From Vineibacter terrae (GTDB lineage Bacteria; Pseudomonadota; Alphaproteobacteria; Reyranellales; Reyranellaceae), in the NCBI RefSeq assembly GCF_008039615.1, contig NZ_VDUZ01000013.1, forward strand, positions 1-64,000: a stretch of DNA of 64,000 bases. Direction: 5' to 3'. Under the pieces are notes generated by a model that worked only from the letters and a program-made list of their open reading frames with translations, was not told the DNA's origin and did not search any database. The position numbers and the translations under genes were made by a program. Positions 3,223-21,697 of this stretch are shown piece after piece. Numbering within the stretch: the first letter of the stretch is position 1; each line of letters begins with the position of its first letter.

Positions 3223-3298
3223 GCCCCCTTCGTCTAGAGGCCTAGGACGCGGCCCTCTCACGGCTGAAACAGGGGTTCGAATCCCCTAGGGGGCGCCA
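3223..3298 (+). tRNA. tRNA-Glu (anticodon CTC)
   Basis: A full cloverleaf is readable. The acceptor GCCCCCT pairs with AGGGGGC (3288-3294), followed by G and an encoded CCA. The D arm is GTCTAGAGGCCTAGGAC, the anticodon loop CTCTCAC has CTC at 3257-3259, and the T arm is GGGGTTCGAATCCCC. Sequence and structure resemble bacterial tRNA-Glu. Its last 47 bases are the crossover core of the integrated element that follows. The copy reconstituted here is intact, so the tRNA should still be functional. Confidence 0.95.
3252..3298 (+). repeat. attL: 47-bp direct repeat within tRNA-Glu 3' end
   Basis: Identical over 47 bp to 21651-21697, covering the anticodon arm, variable region, T arm, acceptor 3' strand and CCA. 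Identity ends abruptly on both sides (3251 G versus 21650 A; 3299 A versus 21698 G). This is the classic outcome of site-specific insertion into a tRNA gene. Confidence 0.95.
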
Positions 3299-3493
3299 AT
3301 GATATCAAGCACTTAGCTTGATCCTCGGCCCGGATGTCCAACAAATGGCCAATATCGCTTCTGGGATGGAGCGCCAGTTCGACCGGATGACTGTGGTAGG
3401 GCGACCCGCGTCGCGGCCGAACGAATAGTCACGCGAATCGCTGTTCGCGAAGGGGCAGCGCGCGCGGCTCAGTCTCCATCCCAGGGACGACCA
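3299..3493. other. Non-coding left end of the element
   Basis: This stretch holds no supported gene. It contains a perfect inverted repeat, ATCAAGC (3304-3310) and GCTTGAT (3316-3322), directly beside the core repeat. It also has one TGTCCAA motif at 3335-3341 that resembles the repeated GTGTCCAA at the opposite end. These may be integrase or excisionase binding sites. The remainder probably holds the promoter of the next gene. Confidence 0.5.
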
Positions 3494-4141
3494 ATGGTCC
3501 AGCCAATCACAAAGATTGAAGTTGCCAGCCGACAGGTAGCCACCGCGATCGAGCTGGTCCTATCCCGATCCGACATTGTTTCCGCCCACACCTTGGCCTT
3601 TGCTGCCCGCGACATCCTCGCGAACCTATGTCAGCACCGGCGCATTCGGGTGACGTTCGACGACATCTTTCTGGCTTGCGGCCCTGCCCTGGAGCGCGAC
3701 CTTCGCTTTCATCTGCGGAAACACTACACGTTCTTCAAGCACGCGGATCGCGACCCGGATGCGACGCTGGACTTGCACGACGATCGGTACACCGACTTCG
3801 TGCTTATCGAATGCCTTGAGCGGCTGAAGGCGCTTGGCGCGTATCCGCCTCAGTGCGCGTTTTTTCCGATCTGGGTGCAATTCTGCACGCCAGGCATGTT
3901 TATGGGCGGACCGGCGCGTGTGCTCTTCGAGCCGATGCAGCAGTTGATCCACCTCTGGCGGCGTGACGAACAGTGCGTCCTGGGCCTGATGTTTTCCAGA
4001 CTGATGCAGGATCGCAAGAGCGAAGCTATGGCGTTGGCGGCGAGTCTCGACAAGACCCGGCGAAACGATATGCGGGTTCTGGAGGCAATGTTTCCGGCTG
4101 CCATGCTCATGGTTCAGCAGATGACGCAGCAGGCAAAATAA
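3494..4141 (+). CDS. Uncharacterised helical protein, likely satellite cargo
   Basis: A 215-residue protein with no signal peptide or membrane segment and predominantly helical composition. It carries the motif FFKHADRDPDA near residue 80. From memory this motif marks a widespread family of unnamed alphaproteobacterial proteins starting with a KIExARRQLxTAI-like helix, as here. It is the first gene inside attL and stands alone on the + strand. End-of-element positions in satellites and prophages often hold accessory genes that benefit the host or exclude other phages. No function can be assigned, and a HEPN-like fold is only a guess. The ATG at 3494 is preceded by a weak purine stretch (CAGGGACG). 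Confidence 0.7.
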   Translation: MVQPITKIEVASRQVATAIELVLSRSDIVSAHTLAFAARDILANLCQHRRIRVTFDDIFLACGPALERDLRFHLRKHYTFFKHADRDPDATLDLHDDRYTDFVLIECLERLKALGAYPPQCAFFPIWVQFCTPGMFMGGPARVLFEPMQQLIHLWRRDEQCVLGLMFSRLMQDRKSEAMALAASLDKTRRNDMRVLEAMFPAAMLMVQQMTQQAK

Positions 4142-4210
4142 GAGGCCCGGCGCGCGGCCGGGCCCGTGCGAGAGGCCCGGCAGCCGAAGCCGCCGGACCG
4201 GACTGAGATC

Positions 4211-4930
4211 TCAGTCGCTGCCGTATGGCTGCGGCACCGGGCCGAACTCATCCAAGGCCGCCTGGGGCACCAAGGCCACCGCGCCGGCGAACACCGGAAC
4301 ATGGTCCGGGCAACCGTAGCGGATCCCCTCCACGTAGATGCGAGCCGCCAGCGCGACGCCGAGTGCTGAGGTCGGAATCGCTTTCCTCATCCGCTCCTCC
4401 GCGGCGTGCATGTCGGCGCACGCCTTCTCCTCGGCATCGGACAAGGCGTCGAGGTTGTGCTTCCTCCGCAGCTCCGCGATCATGCGGCCCTTGCGTCGCA
4501 ACTCCCGTTGCAGATAGCGCCGGATGCGCGCCGCGCCCTCAGGATCGTCTGATGCCAAGATATCCCAGCGGCCATCGAAGCCGCGCCCGCGGCCGTCCAA
4601 CGACCAGATCTGGTAATGGTGCTCTTCCCCGCGCGGGGCGTTGTAGTGGACCAGCGTGATTTTCGGATCGCCGTGGTGCACACAGGCGGGCAATCCCTTG
4701 CTGGCGCTGAGGTGCGCCTTATTGGCCGCCTTATATGCCTCGCAGGAGGCGACCCATTCGCGGTATGCCGTGATGAAGGGGTCAGGCTCGGCAGGCGCAG
4801 AAACCGGCGCAACCTGCGCCTGCTTCTCGGCCGGTAGCGCGGCAAGCGCAGGGACGGTGGCGGCAGCAGCGCCACCGGAGAACGCGGCCAGGAAGCCGCG
4901 GCGGGTTGCGTTGGCCGTATCACGCGACAT
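4211..4930 (-). CDS. Tat-signal protein of unknown function (239 aa)
   Basis: Residues 9-35 form a twin-arginine signal: ATRRGFLAAF, then an Ala/Gly-rich hydrophobic stretch ending ALAALPA. This predicts folded export across the inner membrane. The mature part has a helical, charged region (about 120-200) and two Cys (near 82 and 162), with no motif I can name. Its ATG overlaps the stop of the upstream Tat protein by 11 bp, so the two are translationally coupled. Similar short Tat-tagged proteins appear in alphaproteobacterial prophages, but their role is unknown to me. Confidence 0.7.
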   Translation of the reverse strand: MSRDTANATRRGFLAAFSGGAAAATVPALAALPAEKQAQVAPVSAPAEPDPFITAYREWVASCEAYKAANKAHLSASKGLPACVHHGDPKITLVHYNAPRGEEHHYQIWSLDGRGRGFDGRWDILASDDPEGAARIRRYLQRELRRKGRMIAELRRKHNLDALSDAEEKACADMHAAEERMRKAIPTSALGVALAARIYVEGIRYGCPDHVPVFAGAVALVPQAALDEFGPVPQPYGSD

Positions 4931-5561
4931 GGTCGCCTCCCGCGATGGCTTCCATGTCGTCGATCACGCTGAAAACGACAGGATTGGCGTAGTGGAAGCC
5001 AGTGTCCTCAAGGCACTCCCGACCAAGTTCTATCGCGACGGCGGCGCGCAGCTTGAGCAGGACGCCGCGGGGCGTGCGAGCCGGCGTTTCGGCGAGTTCA
5101 TCACGTAGCTGGGTGAGTTGACCCTCGGCAGGGTCAGTGGCGGTGTCTACGTAGCCGTGCTCGGCCTTGGTGCGATCGCATTTGGCGCGCCACGCCTCCC
5201 AGAGGCGGTACCACGCCTCGAAATCAGCCTTCTGCTGCTCGGTCAGTGGATCGCCGATCTTGATCTGCTTCGCCTCCTGTTCAGTCATGCCAGTGACGCG
5301 AAGGACAGGTTCAGCCGGCTGGTGTGCGACGGCGAGCTCGTATCTCGCCTCGTTCTCGGCGCTGATGCGATCAATCTCTGCCTGCTGCGCAACGATGGCG
5401 TCGTGCAACCGCTGGATCTCAGCATCGGGGTCTGTGGCTGCGATTTGGTCTCTCGGCATAGTGTCCTCACGCTGGGCTGATGCCGCCGCGGATGCGACGG
5501 TGCCGAACGATACCGCTGTCGCGGCTGCCAGCACGCGCCGGCGGGTCGATGTCGCGCTCAT
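4920..5561 (-). CDS. Tat-like signal protein with coiled-coil region (213 aa)
   Basis: It begins MSATSTRRRVLAAATAVSFG, a twin-arginine-type leader followed by an Ala-rich hydrophobic segment ending near ASAQ. A predicted coiled coil (about 45-80, rich in Glu/Gln/Ala) follows, then a helical domain. The ATG overlaps the stop of the S24-like gene (ATGA), and its own stop overlaps the next Tat gene. All three therefore form one leftward operon. A second in-frame Met at residue 35 would give a cytoplasmic version. I prefer the longer start because of the ATGA coupling. Confidence 0.7.
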   Translation of the reverse strand: MSATSTRRRVLAAATAVSFGTVASAAASAQREDTMPRDQIAATDPDAEIQRLHDAIVAQQAEIDRISAENEARYELAVAHQPAEPVLRVTGMTEQEAKQIKIGDPLTEQQKADFEAWYRLWEAWRAKCDRTKAEHGYVDTATDPAEGQLTQLRDELAETPARTPRGVLLKLRAAVAIELGRECLEDTGFHYANPVVFSVIDDMEAIAGGDHVA

Positions 5562-5917
5562 GACCGCACCTCCCCCTTGCCCCAGAGGACGAACGCGCCG
5601 ACGACGCGGCCGCGGACGTCGAGATCCTCGAGAAGCGCCATCCGGTTCGGGGCGGTGCCGCCGTCACACGTGATCCGGACGTAGGCCGGCATGGGGCCGC
5701 AGACCTCAAGCCGGCGGACCAGCAGGCGCTCCGTGCCGCCCCTGCGCTCAGCGAGGACGAAGACGCCCGGCGGCGATGGCCGGCGGTCAAGGGCGTCGAC
5801 TTCGACGAAGTCGCCCGGGCGCAGCGCCGGCGCCATGTCGGCGTCGGCGATCTCCAGTATCCACCGGCCCGGTGCGGGTCCAGCAGGCGCGACGGCGCGC
5901 GTTTCCTCGATGTGCAT
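5558..5917 (-). CDS. S24/LexA-like domain protein with degenerate catalytic dyad
   Basis: A 119-residue protein that is essentially a lone S24 (LexA/UmuD/CI C-terminal) fold. DADMAPALRPGDFVEVD near residues 27-43 replaces the usual GDSMEPTLRPGDLVxVD, and LLVRRLEV replaces LxVKRL. The nucleophile Ser is Asp and the general-base Lys is Arg, so self-cleavage is not expected. There is no N-terminal helix-turn-helix. I start it at the ATG at 5917 (GAGAG 5' of it) because residues encoded upstream are Arg/Pro-rich frame filler. It heads an operon with two Tat-signal proteins and faces a divergent + strand cluster. It could be an oligomerisation partner or antagonist of a repressor, but this is inference. 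Confidence 0.7.
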   Translation of the reverse strand: MHIEETRAVAPAGPAPGRWILEIADADMAPALRPGDFVEVDALDRRPSPPGVFVLAERRGGTERLLVRRLEVCGPMPAYVRITCDGGTAPNRMALLEDLDVRGRVVGAFVLWGKGEVRS

Positions 5918-5939
5918 GGTTGGTGCTCTCGCGTTTGGC

Positions 5940-6168
5940 TTATCAGGCCATTGCCAACGAACAGCGCTGGCGCCGGGGGCTGATAACCGACGCGAGTCGG
6001 CGGACTTCTTGGGCCGTTTCCGGCTTATCCGTCGCACCCCCGGCAAGGGGCGCCGTGCCCCAGGATCAAGGCACAGCAAAGGCCGCCTCCGGGCGACCAT
6101 CGGCTCGCGTTTAAATGGGTGTTATCAGCACCCGACAAAATGGTGCACGTGGGCAGCGCAGGTGTCAA
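5940..6168. promoter_or_regulatory. Divergent control region with repeated TTATCAG sites
   Basis: This gap between the leftward S24 operon and the rightward small-gene cluster has TTATCAG at 5940-5946 and 6122-6128 and its inverse CTGATAA at 5980-5986, consistent with operators. On the minus strand TTGACA (complement of 6163-6168) could be a -35 for the S24 operon, with a weak -10 (CACCAT) 17 bp on and a TTATCAG copy just downstream. The binding protein is unknown; the nearby RHH protein is one candidate. Confidence 0.4.
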
Positions 6169-6202
6169 CATCCCATGCCAGAAAGAGGGGAGGGGGGATC
6201 CC

Positions 6203-6535
6203 ATGTACAGGTTCGACCACGGATGGAAGCGATGGCATGAAGCGTTGAAGGCACGCGGGCAAGAAATCCGGATGGGAGATGGCGACGTCCCTCGCCACCT
6301 ACAAAGAGCGAGGGACGCTCTATTTCTTGTCGCTGACATGGCCATCATGTCAGGCGTGCATCCAGGGAAGGTAGCAGATCTTTGTATCGGTTTCGGCGTC
6401 GAAATCCTGCGCCAGGACGGCATGACGGACCTTGAGATTGCGAAACTGTTGCCAGCCTATGCGGACAGTCAAGATCGTGGCGACGACCTGTCTCTTGACG
6501 ACGATGATGGTCGAGATCCGTTTCCCGTGTGGTGA
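6203..6535 (+). CDS. Small hypothetical protein (110 aa)
   Basis: Starts at the ATG at 6203, preceded by a strong purine tract (GAGGGGAGGGGG). The sequence is helical, with an acidic C-terminal tail (residues 94-105 mostly Asp). The segment LFLVADMAIMSGVHPGKVAD suggests a helical core but matches no family I know. It is the first gene of a rightward cluster of small genes inside the satellite, and the next gene overlaps its end by 32 bp. Confidence 0.6.
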   Translation: MYRFDHGWKRWHEALKARGQEIRMGDGDVPRHLQRARDALFLVADMAIMSGVHPGKVADLCIGFGVEILRQDGMTDLEIAKLLPAYADSQDRGDDLSLDDDDGRDPFPVW

Positions 6536-6680
6536 GGCTCGGCCGTTGGCCCACCGTTATGCCGGCGTAGCGCTTGGCATCGACGAATGGTGCCGGCAGC
6601 AACCGGACCTGCCGTCGCGCGCAGAAGCGATCCGCCGGCTGGTCGAGCTGGGGTTGAAGCGCGTCCCGAAACGTACGTAG
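6504..6680 (+). CDS. Ribbon-helix-helix (CopG/Arc-like) DNA-binding protein
   Basis: The 58-residue product has a beta strand (VEIRFP), then GIDEWCRQQPDLPSRAEAIR followed by RLVELGLKRV. The spacing and PSRAEAIRRLVE segment are typical of short RHH regulators. A start at 6504 or 6507 is needed to include the DNA-contacting strand. Either start lies within the end of the upstream gene, so translational coupling is likely. It is a plausible regulator of the satellite's divergent control region 400 bp upstream. Confidence 0.65.
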   Translation: MMVEIRFPCGEARPLAHRYAGVALGIDEWCRQQPDLPSRAEAIRRLVELGLKRVPKRT

Positions 6681-6688
6681 GTATCATC

Positions 6689-7832: not shown

Positions 7833-8123
7833 TCACTCGCCGTGTGCGCCGCCGAGAGCCCGATAGGCCGCCAGCGCCTTGACGACGAGCGTCGCCGGCA
7901 GCTCCCTGTTGCAGAAGTTGACGCCGCGGCGGGCGCCCGAATCGACCGCGTCCAGCTTCGGCGCCCAGACCTTGAGCCTACCGCCCGGCTGCCGCACCAG
8001 CGCGCAGCCATACAGCTCCACCTCAGACGTCTTGCAGTCGAACCATGCCAAGACGCTGTCGCCGCTCTTGTTGGGCTTCGGCGTCAGCACGAGGGACAGA
8101 CCCGTCACCGCGATGTCGTCCAT
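7833..8123 (-). CDS. Small conserved phage-type protein (96 aa)
   Basis: It opens MDDIAVTGLSLVLTPKP, then alternates strands (VLAWFDCKTSEVELYGCALV) before a C-terminal helix. This beta-then-helix layout is reminiscent of SpoVG-like single-domain proteins seen in alphaproteobacterial phages, but the match is weak. A good GGAGACGATCA site precedes the ATG. It lies 12 bp after terL and is the last gene of the leftward operon. Confidence 0.55.
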   Translation of the reverse strand: MDDIAVTGLSLVLTPKPNKSGDSVLAWFDCKTSEVELYGCALVRQPGGRLKVWAPKLDAVDSGARRGVNFCNRELPATLVVKALAAYRALGGAHGE

Positions 8124-8135: not shown

Positions 8136-9836
8136 TCAAACAATGAGCAGCCCTTCGGGTCGCTCGTCGCTGTCATAGACCGAACGGCTGTTGCCGCCGG
8201 CCGTCGCGCCCCCGATCGCCATGATCGTGGCGTCGATTCCGTCGATCTTCTTCGGTGAGTCCTTGTGTTCCTTCTTCGGCAAAATGGTGCCGTTGACGCG
8301 CCGGTCGACGACGCAGTTCGATGCCATCCACGTCAGGACGGGATTGCCGTCGTGGCGGAACTTCCGGATCTCGACCAGCGCCTCCAGCATCTTGGCCGGC
8401 TCCGAATACGTGTCGGGCTTCTTGTGGATGATCTCGACCGGGAGGCCGTCGCCGAGCAGGCTGGCCGCGATCTGGGCGGAGCCGTAGTGCTCGATCCTGA
8501 TCTTCTCGACCTGGTGCTGGTCGCACAGGGCCCGGATTTCCTCCTCGATCCTGCCGTGGTCGATGAAGTCGCCTTCGGTCGTCGTGATGAAGCCCTCGTC
8601 GGCCCAAACCCGGTAGTGCGTGGTGGTCCGGTGGGCACAGACGTCGACCAGCAGCTCCGGCAGGAAGAATTTCGAGAAGGCGTGGAAGATGCCGTCGCGC
8701 TCGAAGACGATGACCACCGCGGCGACGTCGTTGGTGTCGGCGAGATCGACGCCGATCCATGCCGGCTCCGTCGTGAAGTCCTCGATCCGCAGCTCGGCGT
8801 CGCCGCAGGCCTTCCATTGCTCCATCGACAGCCAGGCCGCCGCGGCGTTCTGCCAGACATTGACGCGCTTCGTCTTGAACTCGCCCGCGCTGGCCGGCGA
8901 GTTGCGCGCCTGCTTGGCGTAGCTCCGCATCTTGTCGATGGCGACGCTGACGCCGAGGTTCGGATTCGCCTTCGGCCACACCCGCTCATCGAAGGGATCG
9001 TCGCCCTCGTCGAGGGTGTAGATGACACCGAAATAGGTATCGTCCTCGAGTACCTGCTCCAGGATCTTGGTGACGTAACTGCGCTGCTCATAGCAAACGC
9101 CCTGGGTGTTGTAGCCCGCCGTCGTAATGTACCAGCCCAGCGGGTTGCGCCGCGCGCCGGTCGCCGAGCGCAGGACATCGTAGAGGGAGCGGTCCTTGTG
9201 GGCGTGGAGCTCGTCGATCACGGTCAGGTGCGGGTTGAGACCGTCCTGCGTCGATGACTTCGCGTTGATGGGCTGGATGCTGCCGCCGCTGGCGCCGCAG
9301 ACGATGGAGTTGGCCATCACCTCCAGGGCGAACGTCTCGCAGAGGTCCGGTGTCAGCTTCGCCATCTTCGATGCGACGTCGAAGACGATGCGGGCCTGGC
9401 TGCCGCTGGTCGCCGCGGTTTTCACCTGCGGGCCGACCTCGCCCTCACAGGTCAGGCAGTACAGGGCGACGCCGCTGGTCAGCGCGCTCTTGGCGTTCTT
9501 GCGCGCGACCTCTGTATAGGCTTGCTCGAACCGCCGGCCGCCGTCGCTACGGCGGCGCCAGCCGAACACCGTGGCGAGCAACCAGACCTGCCATGGTTCC
9601 AACGTGATCGTCGGCGTCGACCACCGGCCCTCGACATGCGGCAGCTTCTCGATGAAGTCACAGACGTTGCCGGCGTGCCATGGATCGAACCGATAGGGCC
9701 ATGCCGGATCGGTCCGGGCCCGGTCGAGGTCGCGCAGGTGGCGAGCACAGGCCAGCTTGACCCATCGGCAGGCCGCCACCTTGCCGCTGCCGACGTCCCG
9801 GCAGTACCGCAGCGCGATGGCCGCATAGTCACGCAT
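8136..9836 (-). CDS. terL: Terminase large subunit (HK97/Terminase_1 type)
   Basis: The 566-residue packaging motor cuts and pumps DNA into the prohead at the portal. The N-terminal ATPase has a Walker A-like VARKNAKSALTS (about 110-121) and Walker B LTVIDELHAH (about 204-213). The C-terminal nuclease half contains WIGVDLADTND and a final Asp in IDGIDATIM. The start at 9836 is preferred because ATGCGTGA overlaps the terS stop by 8 bp. The protein is full length and undamaged. With its own TerS, portal and capsid, the element should package its own DNA rather than redirect a helper's terminase. Confidence 0.93.
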   Translation of the reverse strand: MRDYAAIALRYCRDVGSGKVAACRWVKLACARHLRDLDRARTDPAWPYRFDPWHAGNVCDFIEKLPHVEGRWSTPTITLEPWQVWLLATVFGWRRRSDGGRRFEQAYTEVARKNAKSALTSGVALYCLTCEGEVGPQVKTAATSGSQARIVFDVASKMAKLTPDLCETFALEVMANSIVCGASGGSIQPINAKSSTQDGLNPHLTVIDELHAHKDRSLYDVLRSATGARRNPLGWYITTAGYNTQGVCYEQRSYVTKILEQVLEDDTYFGVIYTLDEGDDPFDERVWPKANPNLGVSVAIDKMRSYAKQARNSPASAGEFKTKRVNVWQNAAAAWLSMEQWKACGDAELRIEDFTTEPAWIGVDLADTNDVAAVVIVFERDGIFHAFSKFFLPELLVDVCAHRTTTHYRVWADEGFITTTEGDFIDHGRIEEEIRALCDQHQVEKIRIEHYGSAQIAASLLGDGLPVEIIHKKPDTYSEPAKMLEALVEIRKFRHDGNPVLTWMASNCVVDRRVNGTILPKKEHKDSPKKIDGIDATIMAIGGATAGGNSRSVYDSDERPEGLLIV

Positions 9837-10254
9837 CCCGGCCCCCGGTTGCTGGCGGCTTCGGCGCATTCGCAGCGAACCGGCTCACCTTGCCACCGGC
9901 CGGCGTGCGGCCGATCTGGCTGGCTGGGGTGTCGAAGAACTCCGCGGCGAGGATCCGGAAAGCGGTGATCTGCGCCACCGGCGGCGTGTTCTTCTTGCGG
10001 TACTGCTCGATGAGCGCCGCCTCGATGGAACAGTACTGCGCCAGCGCGGCCTCACACCCGACGATGCTCTGGCCGCGCGCCGCGTAGATCGCGACCTTCT
10101 CGGCCCACAGCTTGGCCGCCCGGCCGCGCAGCCAGGCCGGCTTCACGACATCCCCGGCGACGGGCGCCACGATCGCCTCCCGCCGGCGGCCCGGCTCATC
10201 GGTTCCGGAGATCAGCTTCAGGGCGGGCGGTTTGCCTTTGGGGCCTGGTCGCAT
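9829..10254 (-). CDS. terS: Terminase small subunit (P27 family-like)
   Basis: The 141-residue protein begins MRPGPKGKPPALKLISGTDE, the G-x-K-x-x-P leader typical of P27-type small terminases. A helical DNA-binding and oligomerisation region ends in a basic, Pro-rich tail. TerS recognises the pac/cos site and loads TerL. It is immediately upstream of terL with an 8-bp overlap and 2 bp after the HNH stop, the usual HNH-terS-terL order of HK97-like phages. Confidence 0.85.
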   Translation of the reverse strand: MRPGPKGKPPALKLISGTDEPGRRREAIVAPVAGDVVKPAWLRGRAAKLWAEKVAIYAARGQSIVGCEAALAQYCSIEAALIEQYRKKNTPPVAQITAFRILAAEFFDTPASQIGRTPAGGKVSRFAANAPKPPATGGRDA

Positions 10255-10256: not shown

Positions 10257-10691
10257 TCAGGACTTCCCTGGAATTTTAATGTGCGTCGCCAAAAATTCGA
10301 CGCCCCCGCCGGTCCCGCCCCCAGGCTGGAAAGTCTGCGAGGCCCCCGGGGTCGCGCGCCGCTCGGCCGACTGCTTGCGGCTGGCGTGGCAGGGCGACGA
10401 CGCCATCGGCTGCCAATTGGCGCGGTTCCAGAAAAGCCGCTGGTCGCCGCGGTGCGGGATGATGTGGTCGACCATGTCGGCCAGCCGCCCGCAGCCGCAG
10501 ACGCAATGCCTGTTCTCCGGGCGGGCAAGGAACGCCTTGCTCTCCCGCTGCCACTTCGAGTCGTAGCCACGGGCCCGCGCGCCGGGACGACGGCGGTCGG
10601 CTGCCGCCTTCCTGGCACGCTGGCACGGACACATCTCGCCCGCGGCGATGGTGTAGCCACAGCCGCAGGCACGGGGCGGGCGCATCGGCAT
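10257..10691 (-). CDS. HNH endonuclease (packaging-associated)
   Basis: A 144-residue protein with HCVCGCGRLADMVDHIIPH followed by NWQPM and CHASRK, the HNH core with extra metal-binding Cys pairs. Two further Cys clusters (CGCG and CPC near residues 10-23) precede a basic stretch. HNH proteins encoded next to terS/terL in HK97-type phages assist terminase cleavage at cos sites. The position directly upstream of terS fits that role. Confidence 0.88.
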   Translation of the reverse strand: MPMRPPRACGCGYTIAAGEMCPCQRARKAAADRRRPGARARGYDSKWQRESKAFLARPENRHCVCGCGRLADMVDHIIPHRGDQRLFWNRANWQPMASSPCHASRKQSAERRATPGASQTFQPGGGTGGGVEFLATHIKIPGKS

Positions 10692-10701: not shown

Positions 10702-10902
10702 TTACGGGCCGCTGGCGATCTTCAGGACGCCGGCGTCATTCCACAGCGTGACGCCGTCGCCAGGATCGGAGGTCGGCAGGGCGCCGAGGTCGGCACCGCC
10801 GACGATCAAGCTGCCGCCGGCCTCGACCGTGATCTTGCCGCCGTCGGCGACAACGACCTCGTCGCCGTCCTGCTTGTGATAGACCTTGGTGTTGTAGGAC
10901 AT
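10702..10902 (-). CDS. Small head-associated or fibre-like protein
   Basis: The product (66 aa) is a strand-rich repeat-like sequence (GDEVVVADGGKITVEAGGSL, then IVGG), reminiscent of short beta-repeat stems of phage head fibres. The start is set at the ATG at 10902 because GGAGGG lies 7 bp upstream. A longer reading would use an ATG before that ribosome site. It sits between the capsid-proximal gene and HNH, so a virion-surface role is likely but not proven. Confidence 0.55.
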   Translation of the reverse strand: MSYNTKVYHKQDGDEVVVADGGKITVEAGGSLIVGGADLGALPTSDPGDGVTLWNDAGVLKIASGP

Positions 10903-14250: not shown

Positions 14251-14545
14251 GCTGATCCACTCGTTCTGGAGACGACATCATCGCTGATTCGCCGCCGTCT
14301 GTATGTTCACGCGTGACAGAAGCGCGAAGAGTGTCGATGGCATAAGCCTCAAACGCGCGTCGGACGCTCTCGAAATCGGTCGACTCGGCAAGCGTGATAT
14401 AGCCCTCGGCGACTAGAAGCGCGGCAACATCGTCCTCGGGGAGCACCAGATCGAAGGTGCGCAGGCCCAGAAGGGCGCGGGCACGACACCGCCGCTGCCT
14501 GTCCGCCGCCTGCCGCCGCTGGCGTTGTCGGGCGGCGCGGCTCAT
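14243..14545 (-). CDS. Hypothetical protein upstream of portal (100 aa)
   Basis: The N-terminal 28 residues are strongly basic (many Arg, e.g. RQRRQAADRQRRCR). A helical body follows, ending in a polar tail. The stop overlaps the portal start by 8 bp and its own start overlaps the preceding gene by 4 bp, so it is part of the same translationally coupled operon. No family is recognised. A nucleic-acid contact through the Arg-rich end is possible. Confidence 0.6.
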   Translation of the reverse strand: MSRAARQRQRRQAADRQRRCRARALLGLRTFDLVLPEDDVAALLVAEGYITLAESTDFESVRRAFEAYAIDTLRASVTREHTDGGESAMMSSPERVDQRA

Positions 14546-14979
14546 GACGAACCCTCACGCCGGCGACGCAGGCGGGCTGCGTGTCGCGCGGCACGCTCTG
14601 TCTCGCCGAGGTCGGGAATGGGAATCCACGGCTGCAGGACCGGCAGACCGTGGCGGCGGCAAAAATCCGCGATGGCCCGTAGCGCGGCAGCACCAGCCTG
14701 GATGCGCTCGACGCCGCCCACGATGCCGGCGGCAGCCTCCGCGCGCAGCGGGGTCAACACGTCGATCAGGTCGACCGACCACGCCTCCCGGGCGTTCTTC
14801 AGGGTCCGCTGTGCCTCGGCCGCCCTCCGAGCCAGCCCGGCATCGTGTGGAGCAACGCGGGCGGCAGCTTCGGCCCGGGCCAAGGCAGCCTCGGCCACAC
14901 GCACGGCGGCGGGTGGTTCGAGGCCGGTCAGGCTGGCATCGACGACAGCCGTGCGGCGGTAGTGGGCAGGGCCGGTCAT
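14542..14979 (-). CDS. Hypothetical coiled-coil protein (145 aa)
   Basis: An Ala/Arg/Glu-rich helical protein with a probable coiled coil over residues 25-70, then LPVLQPWIPIPDLGETERAA and a basic tail. It opens the head operon just after the inverted-repeat region downstream of the helicase gene. It could be a scaffold-like or regulatory factor. I recognise no family. Confidence 0.55.
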   Translation of the reverse strand: MTGPAHYRRTAVVDASLTGLEPPAAVRVAEAALARAEAAARVAPHDAGLARRAAEAQRTLKNAREAWSVDLIDVLTPLRAEAAAGIVGGVERIQAGAAALRAIADFCRRHGLPVLQPWIPIPDLGETERAARHAARLRRRREGSS

Positions 14980-15010
14980 CGGGCGCGCCTCCAGAGCGCC
15001 GCCGTCGGGT

Positions 15011-15106
15011 CTGACACTTCTGACACGTCATCCGGTTGAACCGTACGTACGCGCATCACGCGCGCGCGCGGGACGTTGATAAAGGCGGAAGTGTCAGAAG
15101 TGTCAG
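15011..15106. repeat. Inverted repeat next to helicase gene; possible replication origin
   Basis: CTGACACTTCTGACAC (15011-15026) and its exact complement GTGTCAGAAGTGTCAG (15091-15106) form 16-bp arms around 64 bp. Each arm is itself a tandem of TGACAC half-sites. The spacer contains the palindrome CGTACGTACG (15042-15051) and a CG-alternating run. The right arm overlaps the helicase stop codon. In P4-like elements the origin and its iterons lie near the primase/helicase gene, so an origin is plausible. A structured transcript end is the alternative. Confidence 0.5.
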
Positions 15107-16506
15107 AGCCCGTCATTTGACCACCTATTCAGGCGCAAGCCGGCGAAGCCGCGGGCACCTCTGCTGTCCCGCTTGGGGGCGAATCCACGGGCCTCAAGGG
15201 TATGGACGAACCGCTTTTGGCTGCCGGTCGGCTCCCCGGTGCGCTCGGTCCAGCCCTTCCAGGAAGCAAACATCTCGGACGACTGCGCCCAACCGTTCGG
15301 GTCGATGGTGCACGCCTCGTCCAGCCACAAGGCGATGGAGTCCTCGGCCGCGAGGTATTCCTCCGTGGCCGCGACGACGGTGGCGGGTGCCTTCAGACCA
15401 TCGCGCTGCCAGGTGCGGCAGCCGTCGACCATCCACCGCATGATGGCGGGCCATTCCGCCTTCAACTTCTCTGGCAGCTCAGGATCCCGGCTTTCGGGCG
15501 GGATGGTTACGGTGAATGGCAGCAGGTGCAGTCGTCGGCGCATCGCCTCGTCTACACCCCGCAGGCTGGGGCGATGGTTGCCGACAATGAGCAGCTTGAA
15601 CTGTGGCACGTACTCGAAGAAGTCCTGCCGCATGTACCGCGCCTTGATGCGATCGCCCCCCGTCAGGGATTTGATGCGGGCCTCGTTCCAGCGGCGGCCG
15701 TCGTCGATTTCGGAGGCCACGACCAGGCGGGCGCCGCGCAGGTCGGCCAGCTCGGTCGGGTGCCGCTCGATACGCGAGGCGAGGAAGACGTCGGCCGGTG
15801 CCGTCGTGGCGTAGTCGCCCAGGATGCCGGCAACTGTGTTGACCAGGACGGATTTCCCGTTGGCACCGGTACCCCAGCCGAAGAACAGCGCGTGGGCGGA
15901 CGTATCGCCCGTCAGGGCATAGCCGAGCATGCATTGCAGGAAGCCGATCAGAGCCGGGTCGTTGCTGGTGATCTCGGCAAGGAAGCGCAGCCATCGTGCG
16001 GGGCTGGTGCCCTCGGTGAGGGGCGTGGTAGCCGCAACCTTGGTGCAGTAGGCGAGCGGATCACTGGGCCGTAGGCGGCCGGTGCGCAGATCGACCAGCC
16101 CGCCAGGGGTATTGATCGTCCAAAGATCGGAATCCCATTGGTCGGCGCTGGCGACGAGACGCCTGTCCGATCGCGCCATGCGCTCGACGCCGGCCACCGT
16201 GGCAGCTGAGGCCATCTTTCTCGCTCGGGACGACTCGCTGTCCTGCTTGGGCGCGAATTCCCGACAGACGCCGCGCACGAGGTCATAGACCTCGGTCGTT
16301 CGGTCCTGCTGCCAGCGGCAGCCATCCCAACGCAGCCAACCCATCTGACCGTCGTGGCGCAATTCGCCTGCATGGCGTCCTGCGAACTCGAGCGCCAACC
16401 AGTCTTCGGAACCGGTTGGCGATCGACGCTGCTGCTCGGCGAAGACTGCTTGGGTCGCGGCATTCGCCCATGCCTCATCGGCCATGCTGGAGGCATCAGG
16501 CGGCAT
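15103..16506 (-). CDS. SF3 (D5/P4-type) replicative helicase
   Basis: The 467-residue protein has a D5_N-like middle region (about 125-205). An SF3 AAA+ core follows, with Walker A WGTGANGKSV (about 211-220), Walker B LVVASEID (about 261-268) and the sensor-like LLIVGNHRP (about 305-313). Its C-terminus resembles phage/plasmid primase P4 family proteins. It unwinds origin DNA for autonomous replication. The ATG overlaps the primase stop by 11 bp. A start at codon 8 is also possible. Confidence 0.9.
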   Translation of the reverse strand: MPPDASSMADEAWANAATQAVFAEQQRRSPTGSEDWLALEFAGRHAGELRHDGQMGWLRWDGCRWQQDRTTEVYDLVRGVCREFAPKQDSESSRARKMASAATVAGVERMARSDRRLVASADQWDSDLWTINTPGGLVDLRTGRLRPSDPLAYCTKVAATTPLTEGTSPARWLRFLAEITSNDPALIGFLQCMLGYALTGDTSAHALFFGWGTGANGKSVLVNTVAGILGDYATTAPADVFLASRIERHPTELADLRGARLVVASEIDDGRRWNEARIKSLTGGDRIKARYMRQDFFEYVPQFKLLIVGNHRPSLRGVDEAMRRRLHLLPFTVTIPPESRDPELPEKLKAEWPAIMRWMVDGCRTWQRDGLKAPATVVAATEEYLAAEDSIALWLDEACTIDPNGWAQSSEMFASWKGWTERTGEPTGSQKRFVHTLEARGFAPKRDSRGARGFAGLRLNRWSNDGL

Positions 16507-17365
16507 GACTCACCGCCTCGGCCATCGCCGCGAAGTCTTTGACGCCTGCCGGCGCGACAATGGCGGCGGCCCGCCCAGCATCACGCCATCTCGCCGCTGC
16601 GGCCTCGGCAGCATCGCGGCCCGGCGCATCAGCGTCTCGGAACAGCGTCAGCGCTTCAATGCCGCCCAGGACCGGGAACGTGCGCATGCTGCCGGTCGAC
16701 ATGCACGCCCATATCGGCCGCCAGCCGCTGTTGATGATGGCGAGGCCGTCCTCGATGCCCTCGGACAACCCCAGACCGAGCGTCACGTCTTCGTCTGGCG
16801 TCAGCTTCACAACGGCACCGGCGGACCGGCCCAGCATCATCTTCGCGGGCTGGACGTCGGCCTTGCCGCTGCCATCGGGGCGCAGGTAGGTGCGATGCAC
16901 CCCAGTCGGCTCGTTCGTGATGGCGTCTCGCATCAGGGCGACCATCGCCGGCAGACGGTCGCGCCCGCGCGGGCATTGCGTGTGGAACCGAATGTCTACG
17001 CAGTCGGGCGGTAGCCTGCCGAGGCCTCGGCTCCGTAGGTAGGCTTGGACGACGTGCAGGGGCCCGTGCGCCTCGCCGAAGATTTGGACACCGCGGGCGA
17101 TGGCCTCGCTGCGATCATCCCATAGCGTGGACCGTTGTGCGTCGGCCGTGCGTTGCTCTGCCTCGTCGAGCTGATTGCGGCGTCGCAGCTCGGCGAGGAT
17201 GTCGATTGGGTCGCAACCGGCGAAGCAGCGCACCAACAGAGCGGACTCGCCGTCCGATAGCATCAGGGACGGACTGCGGTCGTCGTGCGAGACGCAGCGG
17301 ACCATGCCGTATCGGCCATGCCAGCGGCCACCAAGCGCGGCGGTGATCGTATGGGCGGTGCTCAT
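16496..17365 (-). CDS. Toprim-domain primase with CHC2-like zinc site
   Basis: The 289-residue protein has a zinc ribbon with C24-x2-H27 and C47-x3-C51. A linker follows, then a Toprim domain (about 190-270) with SEGIEDGLA and LTLFRDADAPGRDAA, the Glu and DxD metal sites. This is the primase partner of the adjacent SF3 helicase, splitting into two genes what P4 alpha fuses in one. The start at 17365 is chosen because ATGA overlaps the upstream stop at 17362. Confidence 0.87.
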   Translation of the reverse strand: MSTAHTITAALGGRWHGRYGMVRCVSHDDRSPSLMLSDGESALLVRCFAGCDPIDILAELRRRNQLDEAEQRTADAQRSTLWDDRSEAIARGVQIFGEAHGPLHVVQAYLRSRGLGRLPPDCVDIRFHTQCPRGRDRLPAMVALMRDAITNEPTGVHRTYLRPDGSGKADVQPAKMMLGRSAGAVVKLTPDEDVTLGLGLSEGIEDGLAIINSGWRPIWACMSTGSMRTFPVLGGIEALTLFRDADAPGRDAAEAAAARWRDAGRAAAIVAPAGVKDFAAMAEAVSHAA

Positions 17366-18300
17366 GCGCCGCCCTCCAGCCACTCGCGGTGGTGCGCGGC
17401 TCGCAGCCTCTCCTCTAGGTCGGGTTCGCCGGCGTGCGTGAACTGATGGAGGCCCAGGTGACTCGCCTCATCTTCGCGTCCATCGATCAAGCAGTTGAGC
17501 TCGCGCCGAGTCAGCTCGGGCCACGGGTCGCTCAACCCCAGCGCGGCGGCGATAATCGGCACGACCGCCTCGACGGCGTGGTGCTTCCGGTTTATCAGGT
17601 CGACGATGAAGCCGAGCCGATCGTAGGCTTCGTCGGGATCATTTTCGGCGGCGATGTGATCATCGACGGCGCGCTCCAGGCTGGCCTTGGTGGAGTCGGG
17701 TCTGGCGTGGTCGTCGCCGCTGCCGAACCGGCGTTCGAATGCCTGCCGTAGGTGCGTTGTCGTCATCTGGTCGTCGAGACGCAGTACATCATCTAATTGG
17801 GCGACGAGATCCTCGGCGCGCTGAGCGGGCGTGCTCGGTTCGCTTGGTGTGGGTGGCGGTGATGGCGTTGCGGTCGCCGGGTCGAAGATCGGACAGGGCG
17901 GCCCGGTCCACGGTCCGCGCTTCGCCGCCTGGTCGTCGGGTGTCAGTAGACCATACGTCTTGCTCAGGGCGCGCAGCGCCTCCCTGACGGTCGAATGCGA
18001 AACACGTTTCGCTTTTTCGGCGTCGAGGCCGGCCAACGCCATGTAGTTCTGCGCGGTCCTGGGCGTGAAGGCGCAGTTGGCCTTAATCCAGCTGAGCCAC
18101 TTGCCGTGTGGCACCTGTGCCTTGGCTTGGCGCAGCAGCGCGCCGGCGCGAAAGGCGTGGTCGATGCCGGTCTGGATTGCCCGCTCACTCTCGGCGTGCG
18201 CTTCGTTGATCAGGTCGGGGAGATCGTCGAGCAGGACGGCCTCGGCCCGGGCCTGCACGACGGGTAGGCGGGCCGCCTCGATGATCCCGGTATTGGACAT
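17362..18300 (-). CDS. DUF3102-like protein
   Basis: Residues 40-95 (HAFRAGALLRQAKAQVPHGK, then WLSWIKANCAFTPRTAQNYM) match the DUF3102 pattern found in phage and plasmid proteins, where TAQxYM lies in a helix-turn-helix-like segment. A Pro/Ser/Thr-rich linker (about 130-160) separates a helical C-terminal domain. It sits directly before the primase with an ATGA overlap, so a role in replication initiation or its control is likely. Length is 312 residues. Confidence 0.7.
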   Translation of the reverse strand: MSNTGIIEAARLPVVQARAEAVLLDDLPDLINEAHAESERAIQTGIDHAFRAGALLRQAKAQVPHGKWLSWIKANCAFTPRTAQNYMALAGLDAEKAKRVSHSTVREALRALSKTYGLLTPDDQAAKRGPWTGPPCPIFDPATATPSPPPTPSEPSTPAQRAEDLVAQLDDVLRLDDQMTTTHLRQAFERRFGSGDDHARPDSTKASLERAVDDHIAAENDPDEAYDRLGFIVDLINRKHHAVEAVVPIIAAALGLSDPWPELTRRELNCLIDGREDEASHLGLHQFTHAGEPDLEERLRAAHHREWLEGGA

Positions 18301-18310: not shown

Positions 18311-18589
18311 CTACTTCGCCAGCCTATCGACGAGGTCCATGGCGTCCTGCAGGCCTTCGATCACCTCAGCCAGCAGCGCCGGCGGGACGGTGACGCCCTT
18401 GGACGTCGGCACGATCTCGCCGGCCGCGGTCGTGATGTGGAGCCTGATGTCGATGAACTCGCGACCCTTGTAGCTGCGCTGCGCGATGCGGATGCGCTCG
18501 CCGCGCCTCTCGTTCTTGACGATATCGGCCAGGACGACGTCGGCAGGGTCAGTCGGTTGCGTCTCGCGACGCTGAGAGGTAGAAGGCAT
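18311..18589 (-). CDS. PC4/p15-like ssDNA-binding coactivator domain protein
   Basis: The 92-residue protein contains IRIAQRSYKGREFIDIRLHI and PTSKGVTVPPALLAEVIEGL, the beta-sheet and helix of the PC4 fold that binds single-stranded DNA. Bacterial and phage members are thought to act in replication or transcription. It lies 10 bp before the DUF3102-like gene in the replication operon. Its first 13 codons overlap the end of the upstream small gene. Confidence 0.75.
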   Translation of the reverse strand: MPSTSQRRETQPTDPADVVLADIVKNERRGERIRIAQRSYKGREFIDIRLHITTAAGEIVPTSKGVTVPPALLAEVIEGLQDAMDLVDRLAK

Positions 18590-18797
18590 CGTTATTTTCC
18601 GTTGCTGAGATGACTTCGCCCGCTCCGGGGTTTTCCTCGGGCGGGCGTTTCTTTGAGGGGATGCTTTGCGCCGGCATCGCGCGAGAAGAGGTCAGGATCG
18701 GCGCGCCGGCCATGCCCTCCCGGGACAGCAGGAGAGGTGCGTAGAGCCTGTTGCCGGCCCGGATCTGGGCGGGGGTCGGACGGCGAGTCCGCGGCAT
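18549..18797 (-). CDS. Small hypothetical protein coupled to AlpA-type gene
   Basis: The start is at 18797, where the AlpA stop and this ATG share TGATG. The first 35 residues (MPRTRRPTPAQIRAGNRLYA, then PLLL) look like a genuine basic small protein. The last 40 run across a GC hairpin and overlap the PC4 gene by 41 bp, so the true end is uncertain. A frameshift, or a short protein with a read-through tail, is possible. Function unknown. Confidence 0.45.
   Translation of the reverse strand: MPRTRRPTPAQIRAGNRLYAPLLLSREGMAGAPILTSSRAMPAQSIPSKKRPPEENPGAGEVISATENNDAFYLSASRDATD
18617..18654 (+). terminator. Terminator-like hairpin (reads on + strand)
   Basis: CGCCCGC (18617-18623) and GCGGGCG (18641-18647) form a GC-rich stem, and TTTCTTT follows on the + strand. 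It lies inside a minus-strand gene, so it would stop antisense transcripts or act as structure in the leftward mRNA. Its position inside coding sequence lowers confidence. Confidence 0.35.
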
Positions 18798-19006
18798 CAG
18801 GCGGCCCGTTTGCTGGCCAACCACGTCAGGAGGTCATCGCGCATGATGAGGCGACGCTTACCCAGTTTCAGGCTGGCGAGCTCGCCATGCTTCAGCGCGA
18901 GATAGATGTAGGAGCGACCAATGCCCGTCGCCTCGACCGCTTCCTCAACGGAATAGCTGATCTTGACGGGGAGGGCAGGGGCCGCGGCGGTGGCGGTGTT
19001 CTGCAT
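18797..19006 (-). CDS. AlpA/excisionase-type helix-turn-helix protein
   Basis: The 69-residue protein has YSVEEAVEATGIGRSYIYLA followed by LKHGELASLKLGKRRLIMRD, the HTH_17/excisionase signature (winged HTH with the GKRR.I wing). AlpA-type proteins switch on integrase or excision functions in P4-like satellites and PICIs. The start at 19006 gives a compact protein; an ATG at 19018 is equally open. It sits between the replication genes and the integrase pair, the usual regulatory position. Confidence 0.82.
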   Translation of the reverse strand: MQNTATAAAPALPVKISYSVEEAVEATGIGRSYIYLALKHGELASLKLGKRRLIMRDDLLTWLASKRAA

Positions 19007-19110
19007 TCTGTCGTCCATGAGTTCGTGGTGGACGACAGACCATCTATGCCAGTCGATGCCCGGCAAACAGACCCAAAATTTCGGAGCGGGCCTTTACACC
19101 GGTGCAAGAC

Positions 19111-20064
19111 TCACGTGCTGGTTTTTACCCCGGTCAGTCGGCCGGGTCGTCCTTTGCGCTTCGGCGGTTTCACCTTCTTCGCCTTGCCCCTGTCCGCCTC
19201 GCCCCTCTCGCCGACGATCCGGTTCCGAATGTCGTGTGCGTTCAGATCGTCGATCCAAGCACCCGTGAAGCCGAGGTCGTGTTCCTGGCCGTCCTCGGTT
19301 CTGACCAGAAGGCGTTGGGCGAACGCAGGCGGAACCTGCCAAGCCTCATCAATCGAGAGAAGGGCCTCTCCCGCGCGCCGGCGCTTCGGCACGATGGTAG
19401 ACGCCTGGTGTAGCAGGTAGTACGCGGTGGCGAAAAACTCCGAGAGGCCGGCTGGCGTAAGGAGTTCCACGCCGACATCCTCGAGGATGTACCAAGCTGC
19501 CCACAGGTGGCTGACAGATTTGTACCTGGGCCAAAGGTGCTTCTTGATGTTCTGCTTTCCACCCCCCACTACCCGGTTTCTACGGCACCATTCTGCGATG
19601 CCGTCGATGGCTCGTGTGAGAGACGCCTCTGGCTGCGTCTCCGGCTGCTGCCAGCGCGAGACGACCCATCGGAGGATGTAGCCGCTCGCGATATGAGCAA
19701 GCCAGTCGCGGTCTAGCATGCGGCGGACGATCAGCCGCCAGTCCTCTCGGCCGTCGAAGCTGAGTGCCACGTCGGGATCTACCGTCAGTGGGACGCCGGC
19801 TTCGCGGAGGCCCTGCACGATGCTGAGCGACTGATCGGCAAAGATGGCATGGTTGAGCCGGATGATGTCTTCGTATTGCTCGACGCCGGGGGAGCACATG
19901 ACGGACAGCGTGTAGATGAAATCTCGCTGGGCCAGGACGTTGTTTGCGATCGCGGACAGCTTGTCCAGATCCTCCTCGCCGTTCAGCTCAGCGATGGCGA
20001 CTTCGGGGATCTCGAGCAGCGCATCATTGTCGAAGTGAGCTGACGGAAGATCGAGCAGCGGCAT
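19111..20064 (-). CDS. Unknown protein translationally coupled to the integrase
   Basis: A 317-residue protein whose ATG shares TGATG with the integrase stop. It has no signal or membrane segment. The N-terminal third is acidic, the middle is aromatic-rich and helical (WLAHIASGYILRWVVSRWQQ; WAAWYILEDVGVELL), and the C-terminus is a Lys/Arg-rich tail (KAKKVKPPKRKGRPGRLTG). The basic tail suggests nucleic acid binding. I recognise no family. Coupling to int suggests a role in integration/excision or in satellite establishment. Confidence 0.7.
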   Translation of the reverse strand: MPLLDLPSAHFDNDALLEIPEVAIAELNGEEDLDKLSAIANNVLAQRDFIYTLSVMCSPGVEQYEDIIRLNHAIFADQSLSIVQGLREAGVPLTVDPDVALSFDGREDWRLIVRRMLDRDWLAHIASGYILRWVVSRWQQPETQPEASLTRAIDGIAEWCRRNRVVGGGKQNIKKHLWPRYKSVSHLWAAWYILEDVGVELLTPAGLSEFFATAYYLLHQASTIVPKRRRAGEALLSIDEAWQVPPAFAQRLLVRTEDGQEHDLGFTGAWIDDLNAHDIRNRIVGERGEADRGKAKKVKPPKRKGRPGRLTGVKTST

Positions 20065-21452
20065 CAGCTGACCTCCTGCGGCGAGCGACCGTCGGCAATA
20101 TCTCGTACCTTGCGATCGACTTTCAGCCCAAACCGCGGCGCACCCTTGCGGATGGCATCGCGGATGTAAGAGGGGGCGAGGTGGCCATAGTGCTTCTCGA
20201 CCATGCGGGTGTCGCTGTGACCGAGGTTCTTGGCGACGACGAGCAACGGGACGCCGTTCATCACGGCGTGCGATGCCCAGGTGTGACGCAGGCCATGGAA
20301 CGAAATCCGTGGCGTGATTTTCGCGGCCTTGCATGCCGCACGCATCGGTCGGGCCTGATGCGCCGTGCGCCAAGCCGTGCCGTCGGCGTGCGCGAACAGC
20401 AGCACCGGATCATCATCGTCAAGGGGTGGTCCTTGGTTATGCCCGCGCCGGTCGGCTTGCTCGGCTTCCCGCTTCGCCAGCTCGGCCGCCCTGACCATTG
20501 CCGTCCGTTTGAAGAACGCCGCGCCTTCCGCGGTGAGTTCGATGTGGCGGGCCTTCCCGCTCTTGCTCTCTCGGATCAGCAGCGTCTCAGAGTCGGGGTT
20601 GAAGTCCTCGACCAACAACCGGCCCAGCTCGCCGTAGCGCGCGCCGCTCAACAGCGCCGCCGTGATTAGTGAGCGGAAATCCGGCGCGGCCGCGTTGATG
20701 AGACGCTGGGATTCCGCGAGCGACAGGTATCGGACCCGGGCGGCGTCAACGCTTTCGAAGGGCTTCACCCGACGCCATTCGACGTCCGAGGTGACGTGCC
20801 CCTCCTTGAACTGGTGGTTCAAGGCCGCCTTCAGCACGGTTAGCACGCGGTTCGCGGTTGATCGGCGCCGGCGTTTGGCCTCGTCGCTGTCATCGGCCGC
20901 GCGGTGCCGCTGGTCCTGGCCCGGCTTCGTGCGGAGGCGGGCAGAGGCCTTCGCGAGATCCCGATGCCACTTTCGGATCGCCTTCGTCGTGAGCGCGGCG
21001 ATCTCGGTGTCGCCCAGCGCCGGCAGGATGAATGCCTCCGCCTTGTAGCGGGTATCCCGCGCCGATTTTCGGTTGTCCTCGAGGAAAGCAAGATATTCCT
21101 CGACCGCCGCGCGCACCGTGAGGGGCCCGGCTGGCGTCTGTGTCGCCTTGGCTGCCTCGGTGTGCCGGCGCCGCGCCTCATCCTGGGCCTGCTTGAACGA
21201 CAGTACCGCTGCACCGTCGGCGTTGGCGAAATCGTCGGCCACGCCGATGCGCTCGACGGTATAGGCCTGCTGGCCGGCGTACCGACGGACCACCCAGGCG
21301 CCGGCGACCTGCTGGCCGCGCCTGCCCTTGGCCTTGCGGTAGCCGAGGTGCAGGCCAGGCTCGATGGCGCGGTAGTAGGGCTTGCCCCGAGGTTTCAGCC
21401 GCTCCCGCGCCGCCCTGCTATCCAACGAGGCATCCTTGATCGTGCGTGCCAT
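20064..21452 (-). CDS. int: Tyrosine recombinase (element integrase)
   Basis: The 462-residue protein catalyses site-specific recombination at the tRNA-Glu att core. It has an N-terminal arm-binding region with GLHLGYRK, a SAM-like core-binding domain (about 110-170), and a C-terminal catalytic domain with R272 (LLSGARYGEL), H386-x2-R389 (HGLRHTWAS), H412 (LGHSD) and the nucleophile Y422. Residues 430-462 form a basic tail. The start at 21452 gives the usual MARTIKDASL-type N-terminus; a longer in-frame reading exists but overlaps likely arm sites. It is adjacent to attR and transcribed inward. Confidence 0.92.
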   Translation of the reverse strand: MARTIKDASLDSRAARERLKPRGKPYYRAIEPGLHLGYRKAKGRRGQQVAGAWVVRRYAGQQAYTVERIGVADDFANADGAAVLSFKQAQDEARRRHTEAAKATQTPAGPLTVRAAVEEYLAFLEDNRKSARDTRYKAEAFILPALGDTEIAALTTKAIRKWHRDLAKASARLRTKPGQDQRHRAADDSDEAKRRRRSTANRVLTVLKAALNHQFKEGHVTSDVEWRRVKPFESVDAARVRYLSLAESQRLINAAAPDFRSLITAALLSGARYGELGRLLVEDFNPDSETLLIRESKSGKARHIELTAEGAAFFKRTAMVRAAELAKREAEQADRRGHNQGPPLDDDDPVLLFAHADGTAWRTAHQARPMRAACKAAKITPRISFHGLRHTWASHAVMNGVPLLVVAKNLGHSDTRMVEKHYGHLAPSYIRDAIRKGAPRFGLKVDRKVRDIADGRSPQEVS

Positions 21453-21473
21453 TGGCCGTTCTTCCCGGGGGCG

Positions 21474-21554
21474 GTGTCCAATCGTGTCGAACAGGGACCG
21501 CGCGCCGATGCGCTGTGCAGGGCTGCAACTGTCCGTGTCCAACACCGTGTCCAA
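21474..21554. promoter_or_regulatory. Repeated GTGTCCAA sites between int and attR
   Basis: GTGTCCAA occurs at 21474-21481, 21535-21542 and 21547-21554, with a one-mismatch copy GTGTCGAA at 21484-21491. A related ATGTCCAA sits near attL (3334-3341). Clustered direct repeats flanking a tyrosine-recombinase core are typical arm-type integrase or excisionase sites. The region also holds the int promoter, so autoregulation is possible. Confidence 0.5.
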
Positions 21555-21650
21555 TATACGCACCCGGATTGCCCCGGACAAGGACGGATGAAAAGCGGCG
21601 TAAATGCTGGATTTATGGGACGTTCGCGGATGCCAGCGGACGGCAGATTA

Positions 21651-21697
21651 GCCCTCTCACGGCTGAAACAGGGGTTCGAATCCCCTAGGGGGCGCCA
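21651..21697 (+). repeat. attR: 47-bp copy of the tRNA-Glu 3' end
   Basis: Identical over 47 bp to 3252-3298 but lacking the tRNA 5' half, so it is not a functional tRNA. It marks the right boundary of the satellite. The next 40 bp contain the orphaned terminator of the tRNA gene. Confidence 0.95.

Follow-up and report, generated by a model that had tools for sequence, protein, structure and literature searches.

Phage-inducible chromosomal islands (PICIs) are integrated islands with an integrase, attachment (att) sites, an AlpA-type regulator and a primase/replication module of their own; their capsid-forming members (cf-PICIs), which a helper induces and which join helper tails to capsids of their own, were reportedly defined by Alqurainy et al. 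in 2023. P4-like satellites carry an integrase, an AlpA-type regulator, a primase/helicase and repeats near the helicase, and gene transfer agents possess tail genes and do not excise themselves. Here we describe an 18.4-kb island (3252-21697, hereafter the element) in the window, a 64,000-nucleotide stretch of Vineibacter terrae (NZ_VDUZ01000013.1, positions 1-64,000). On its gene content and its place among related sequences it is likely to be an intact, capsid-forming phage satellite.

The traits named above for P4-like satellites are common to the element. P4, as described in the excerpts of PMC10690885 used here, redirects helper capsid assembly, whereas the element has its own capsid gene. 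According to the same excerpts cf-PICIs encode a capsid, a head maturation protease, a portal, head-tail connectors, TerS, TerL and HNH; the excerpts of PMC10803314 give an average size of 14 kb, name main host groups without Alphaproteobacteria and accept either PF12728 or PF05930 as AlpA in the PICMI search. The element is alike in having portal, protease, capsid, HNH, TerS and TerL genes and no tail (PMC10690885, PMC10803314). It also has the integrase and att sites, the AlpA-type regulator and the primase that we take as marks of PICIs. It is unlike cf-PICIs in its size of 18.4 kb, in its alphaproteobacterial host and in the connectors, which were tested for and not found; because these are defining in the excerpts of PMC10690885, the element is not filed as a member, but, compared by gene content and published descriptions, it would work like a cf-PICI. 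The Streptomyces satellites MulchRoom and MiniFlayer likewise have their own head and packaging genes, with capsids about half the helper size and, for MulchRoom, an inferred helper tail; unlike the element with its primase and helicase they are without primases, encode scaffold and head-tail adapter proteins and are parasites of virulent phages (same excerpts of PMC10690885). A literature search of titles and abstract openings returned no capsid-forming satellite of Alphaproteobacteria and no tape-measure satellite, so far as such openings tell; an earlier description is possible.

Codon-based gene calling gave 27 genes between the repeats, so that the figure of about 28 reading frames in the earlier note holds approximately and not exactly. 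The minus-strand genes from the integrase down to position 7833 are tightly packed and frequently overlap (Table 1). The portal, protease, HK97 capsid, HNH, TerS and TerL named in that note each have a Pfam or PHROG match, the intact integrase, primase and helicase are borne out by PF00589 (1.4e-22), Toprim_3 and D5_N/DUF5906, and the AlpA-type regulator by HTH_17, though the AlpA model itself stays below cut-off. Its two structural observations were also confirmed: the perfect 47-bp att repeats are two identical direct copies spaced 18,399 bp, and the overlapping stop and start codons occur at six junctions (capsid/protease, protease/portal, portal/14243-14545, 14243-14545/14542-14979, primase/17362-18300 and TerL/TerS). 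The solved chain nearest to the capsid protein, Rcc01687, is presumably the capsid of the Rhodobacter gene transfer agent. Unlike a gene transfer agent the element has its own integrase, att sites, primase and HNH, and no tail gene was found in it.

Pfam and PHROGs assign a tail or lysis family to none of the 27 called genes. A phmmer comparison of the window (E up to 0.1) with 56 proteins of neck, tail or head surface, taken from phages, resident prophages and relatives, matched only the three post-capsid proteins. Relaxed hidden Markov models (HMMs) for adaptor, closure, Ne1 and terminator proteins gave nothing convincing in 27 frames, the lowest adaptor match being TerS (E 0.0099); other weak matches were those of 4920-5561 to a tail family of full prophages (0.018) and of the post-capsid protein to a tape measure (0.02). 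With neck proteins from the nearest relatives as queries, tblastn detected no relic in the element (best E 0.066, inside the portal gene), and the full-size siphophage set of tail tube, tape measure, tip and lysis genes was not found in the scans run. The earlier statement that tail and lysis genes are not recognisable agrees with Pfam and PHROGs, and for the tail also with relaxed HMMs and phmmer. The description of the head module as complete is not supported, as head-tail connectors were found by neither HMM, phmmer nor tblastn. Because no adaptor or closure gene was found, the neck would probably come from the helper too, or from an unrecognised small protein of the satellite.

Relatives of the 143-aa post-capsid protein stand after the capsid gene in both small elements and full phages. 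The AlphaFold2 model of this protein from 30 sequences (predicted local distance difference test, pLDDT, 82) gave modest Foldseek scores, mainly to uncharacterised phage proteins, and the matches are presumably beta-sandwich and jelly-roll domains. The model points to a probable head decoration protein rather than a tail tube; the latter was rejected on the beta-sandwich fold and because the 50 PDB matches listed include no tail-tube chain. The product of 10702-10917 could, as a guess, be a second capsid-surface protein. The 100-aa gene before the portal was considered as a connector and rejected (no PDB match at E <= 0.001).

A single branch of the capsid tree (43 rows) splits 28 small from 15 phage rows (support 92/72). 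The split occurs in 92% of 200 bootstrap trees and none of 500 label shuffles was as low. The portal tree concurs with 26 small and 16 phage rows (support 97). Together with the gene content this clade of small elements supports the satellite-like, capsid-forming and tailless character first proposed. L002 entered the capsid tree via translation of its match, and the phage label of L081, L108, L109 and L111 was assumed from record layout, L081 being a record of 17.0 kb that shares its capsid with L111.

An IMG/VR scan with the capsid gave 52 loci, one of which is this very element (L040, 17,959 bp); the other 51 records comprise 23 of 12-18 kb, one of 18.1 kb, 21 shorter and 6 above 23 kb, and an integrase is present in 17 of 28 viral records tested from the 52. 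The TerL scan gave 285 loci. Among the best 80 of these, five non-self records share at least 75% identity (9.6, 16.2, 16.8, 17.3 and 19.6 kb), and many relatives below 60% lie in records of 25-45 kb. Within the host's order the capsid matched at E <= 1e-20 in 10 of 76 genomes, in both full tailed prophages (L030-L038) and small elements. At E <= 1e-75 a draw of 385 genomes from the class contained 10 with a capsid match and a draw of 398 from the phylum 7, each of these seven belonging to the same class; the host genome is counted in both draws, and the phylum draw mixes class and non-class genomes in unstated proportion. Ten of the 13 non-self genomes were newly fetched, G068 had been fetched before, and G250 and G376 were left out.

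Repeats bound L095 (48 bp, tRNA-Ala, 16.3 kb) and L075 (45 bp, 17.3 kb) and, at tRNA genes, the elements of G396 (51 bp, 18.0 kb), G380 (48 bp, 14.8 kb) and G688 (47 bp, 16.5 kb). Shorter repeats at tRNA genes occur in G803 (18 bp, 17.1 kb), G805 (17 bp, 17.1 kb) and G284 (17 bp, 16.0 kb); repeats of 16-17 bp also arise by chance (17 bp in G297, far from any tRNA), and these three are counted only because each coincides with a tRNA end. The element ends of G210 and G844 were not located. The G688 element (C1, joined L228+L229, 4242-20828) lies at tRNA-Pro and has portal, protease and capsid genes; tblastn found no TerL in it. In L140, with a TerL of 75% identity, capsid, HNH, TerS and TerL stand back to back. 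Salmonella phage As1 (16.5 kb) was rejected as a small relative, being a partial record with a tail.

Neck and tail families, named by PHROG annotation, were tabulated for 28 small elements, the element's own record L040 included. The table omits L002 and L048 (gene caller on the wrong strand), the duplicates L004, L006, L051 and L052 of L096/L098 (L096 itself being near-identical to L098), fragments below 11 kb and the marine-type L066, L069 and L070 without integrase; partial viral loci were replaced by full records. An adaptor was found in 22 of the 28 and a tape-measure gene in 15, while six have neither adaptor nor closure (L040, L095, L001, L005, L046 and L047, the last two incomplete at one end). 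In the search proposed in the earlier note, for capsid, portal and TerL neighbours in elements of about 15-20 kb without tape measure, the nearest relatives by all three proteins are small; the tape-measure gene is present in the 15 tabulated elements just counted. Ten large sister-element proteins were scanned: nine proved to be tape measures, the tenth a tail fibre. Tape-measure genes stand near TerL at L001:14263-16842, L007:15868-18141, L053:10955-13135, L058:8796-10685, L100:3953-6682, L023:4986-7520, L025:2811-5408, L029:2564-6208 and L106:8094-10256. The small elements of the same capsid clade that bear them mostly have no recognised tail tube or tip, and may set tail length themselves. 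Tail-tube relatives were found in three of 34 locus pieces searched (L100, L101 and L105, with a minor-tail relative in L101); in these 17-kb elements the post-capsid slot holds a 158-aa relative of a phage tail-tube protein. The later set has tube-type matches in G803 and G844, a further tail-type match in G803 and tape measures in G803, G805 and G844.

If the element is such a satellite, the integrase and the helix-turn-helix protein would excise it once a helper phage is active, and its replication by primase and helicase would start in the repeat cluster 15010-15107. Portal, protease and capsid protein would assemble a small head, which TerS, TerL and HNH would fill with satellite DNA; a helper siphophage would give tail and lysis. 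The host genome contains no second PF05065, PF04860 or PF03354 protein. It has two siphophage-type prophage regions, G000:C65 (L126) and G000:C32 (L127-L128). Both contain TerL (phrog_15) and a tape measure, to which C65 adds a portal and a major tail protein; phrog_15 is presumably the lambda-type TerL. A small gene next to the portal in these resident regions looks by eye like a gpW-like adaptor. Both are possible helper candidates by their gene content. Exact matches between the element and these regions, examined as a clue to cos or operator sites, were uninformative (longest 20 bp).

Several points weigh against an intact capsid-forming satellite. Induction, particles and helper use are inferred, the element being known here from its genes, and with no neck gene found its head may be unable to accept a tail. 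Many sister elements do have some tail genes, so that the capsid clade is not uniformly tailless and the element stands at its barest end. The TerL tree (26 small, 11 phage rows) has no single small group and requires at least four changes, the element grouping with L092, L094 and the phages VW-6S and As1; this scatter argues for exchange of packaging genes with phages and, as capsid and portal trees agree, for head genes kept together in small elements and a swapped terminase. The small label of some metagenome fragments rests on incomplete records. The small rows had first been collected by likeness to the element, which favours such a clade, and for this reason ten capsid relatives were fetched afterwards as a test. 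Eight of them joined the small rows (support 89), six of these being repeat-bounded at tRNA genes (14.8-18.0 kb). G297, a full prophage, was placed among the phages, whereas G366 lies outside both groups and fits neither.

It is unlikely that the element is what remains, now inactive, of a siphophage prophage after loss of the tail and lysis module, although neck genes of the TerL-near relatives L092, L137, L139 and L141 were not found in it and the tape measure is retained in the sister elements counted above. Such decay would have to spare perfect att repeats and dense overlapping genes and leave no neck-gene relic for tblastn, and it would have to explain a whole clade of equally small elements, to which the later ten-relative test added. 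The view of the earlier note that random decay is not the cause is supported by the same observations. Full siphophages with the same flanks, named there as the finding that would speak for deletion, were not seen among the relatives fetched. The ratio of nonsynonymous to synonymous substitution (dN/dS, NG86) for four head genes and TerL against L092, L093, L001 and L022 was 0.15-0.84, below 1 in all 18 comparisons (two more gave no value; the minimum is TerL against L092). This too speaks against a remnant, but dS is close to saturation and the ratio therefore shows constraint only loosely.

Less probable again is an autonomous small phage whose short tail is built from unassigned small genes. 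Several frames of the element have no relative in the loci searched, and L100, L101 and L105 show that tail-tube and tape-measure genes are possible in this capsid clade; yet the largest proteins without family have only 317 and 239 aa, no lysis gene and no Pfam or PHROG tail family was found, and the phmmer comparison matched post-capsid proteins alone. Most improbable is a satellite whose heads merely interfere while it spreads by another route than tail joining, a reading favoured by the six tabulated elements without adaptor and closure and by the back-to-back genes of L140, against which the retained integrase and terminase would point to an element that packages and delivers its own DNA.

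The element is inserted in tRNA-Glu(ctc), which remains intact. In the congener G074 (L123) the site is empty, with tRNA-Glu directly joined to sequence like window 21651-21741; the match to the right flank is 93%, with 44 bp of it past the repeat, and it restarts only at 27.3 kb of the window, which indicates that the right flank was altered too. G073 has a different sequence after tRNA-Glu. As the hairpin at 21710-21735 has its counterpart directly 3' of the tRNA in the empty site, the insertion probably split tRNA-Glu from its terminator, and the hairpin is probably that terminator, displaced by the element. In a further congener (G075) an identical 47-bp att sequence (L125:7600-7646) stands at a contig end beside an integrase N-terminus 43% identical to that of the element, perhaps another element at the same site.

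The candidate replication origin lies between the helicase gene and position 14979. The TCTGACAC-type 8-mer has five copies in 64 kb on both strands, four of them within 15010-15107. The motif TTCTGACACG with one mismatch allowed shows no enrichment across the whole window (5 found, 3.4 expected), its clustering being the point. Of 14 elements scanned for at least four occurrences of an 8-mer inside 200 bases, 10 have one or more clusters and L093, L137, G396 and L075 have none; shuffling of two-base blocks gave 0.0-0.1 clusters per shuffle. L092, L095 and L098 each have one cluster at the end of their primase/helicase gene (phrog_1139). In G380, G284, L098 and L095 the same or a related 8-mer is clustered at two separate places per element, like a paired origin.

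PADLOC detected no defence gene among 10 frames of the element scanned, five of them in the accessory block, one of which (6119-6535) is not a called gene. Gene 6459-6680 has a single weak repressor match (0.0021), and relaxed neck HMMs likewise gave no connector there. By eye 5558-6100 has what we take to be a LexA/CI-type (S24-like) domain that lacks the customary catalytic serine, and it has no family match; its product is possibly a repressor.

Table 1. Features of the element and its insertion site in the window
Feature	Position	Strand	Evidence
tRNA-Glu(ctc), integration target, intact	3223-3298	+	ARAGORN; same tRNA with empty site in L123
attL, 47 bp	3252-3298	+	Repeat comparison; 3' part of tRNA-Glu(ctc)
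Accessory block, 8 small genes without assigned function, up to 239 aa	3494-7768	both	Gene calling, family scans
Small protein after TerL	7833-8123	-	Relatives after TerL in L044 and G380
Terminase large subunit (TerL)	8136-9836	-	PF20441 9.6e-44, PF03354 6.7e-37
Terminase small subunit (TerS)	9829-10254	-	phrog_83 1.4e-6
HNH endonuclease	10257-10691	-	phrog_2323 3.7e-19
Small protein	10702-10917	-	PHROGs, phrog_12102 3.7e-8
Beta-sandwich (jelly-roll-like) post-capsid protein, 143 aa, probable head decoration	10914-11345	-	phrog_5707 5.4e-27
HK97-fold major capsid protein	11358-12515	-	PF05065 2.1e-72; nearest solved chain Rcc01687, 6tb9, 3.6e-42
S78 prohead protease	12512-13045	-	PF04586 3.3e-34
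Portal	13042-14250	-	PF04860 1e-89; nearest solved chain 9lbn, 1.3e-31
Helical protein, 100 aa, overlaps portal gene	14243-14545	-	AlphaFold2 from single sequence, pLDDT 73
Protein without Pfam/PHROG/PADLOC family	14542-14979	-	Gene calling
Candidate replication origin	15010-15107		Two TCTGACAC direct repeats and two inverted copies, beside helicase gene
D5-type helicase (D5_N/DUF5906)	15103-16506	-	PF08706 6.8e-27; phrog_6088 1.4e-130
Toprim primase	16496-17383	-	PF23639 1.6e-23, PF13362 (Toprim_3) 2.1e-12
DUF3102 protein	17362-18300	-	PF11300 5.6e-8
PC4-like single-stranded-DNA-binding or transcription protein	18311-18589	-	PF02229 2.2e-10
Small protein, no Pfam/PHROG/PADLOC family	18549-18824 (called as 18549-18797)	-	Gene calling
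AlpA/HTH_17-type regulator, probable excisionase	18797-19066	-	PF12728 7.2e-9; AlpA model PF05930 below cut-off
Protein of 317 aa, no Pfam/PHROG/PADLOC family	19111-20064	-	Gene calling
Tyrosine integrase	20064-21452	-	PF00589 1.4e-22, phrog_1 1.6e-56, both scored on longer frame 20064-21581
attR, 47 bp, same as attL	21651-21697	+	Repeat comparison
Terminator-like hairpin	21710-21735	+	Same kind of stem directly after tRNA in empty site L123

Head-building satellites form a recent class, and such elements are readily misfiled as broken prophages or incomplete phage genomes. The probable capsid-forming satellite described here places a separate capsid clade in Alphaproteobacteria, with a graded series of what satellites build and what they borrow. 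It is conceivable, if somewhat doubtful, that a satellite-dedicated capsid/portal lineage spread in this class and was rebuilt with head only (the element, L095), with head and neck, or with head, neck and its own tape measure, and that the head-only portal docks directly on the helper neck. Two questions become testable: whether a satellite head may stand on a foreign neck, and whether tail length may be set by a satellite's own tape measure.

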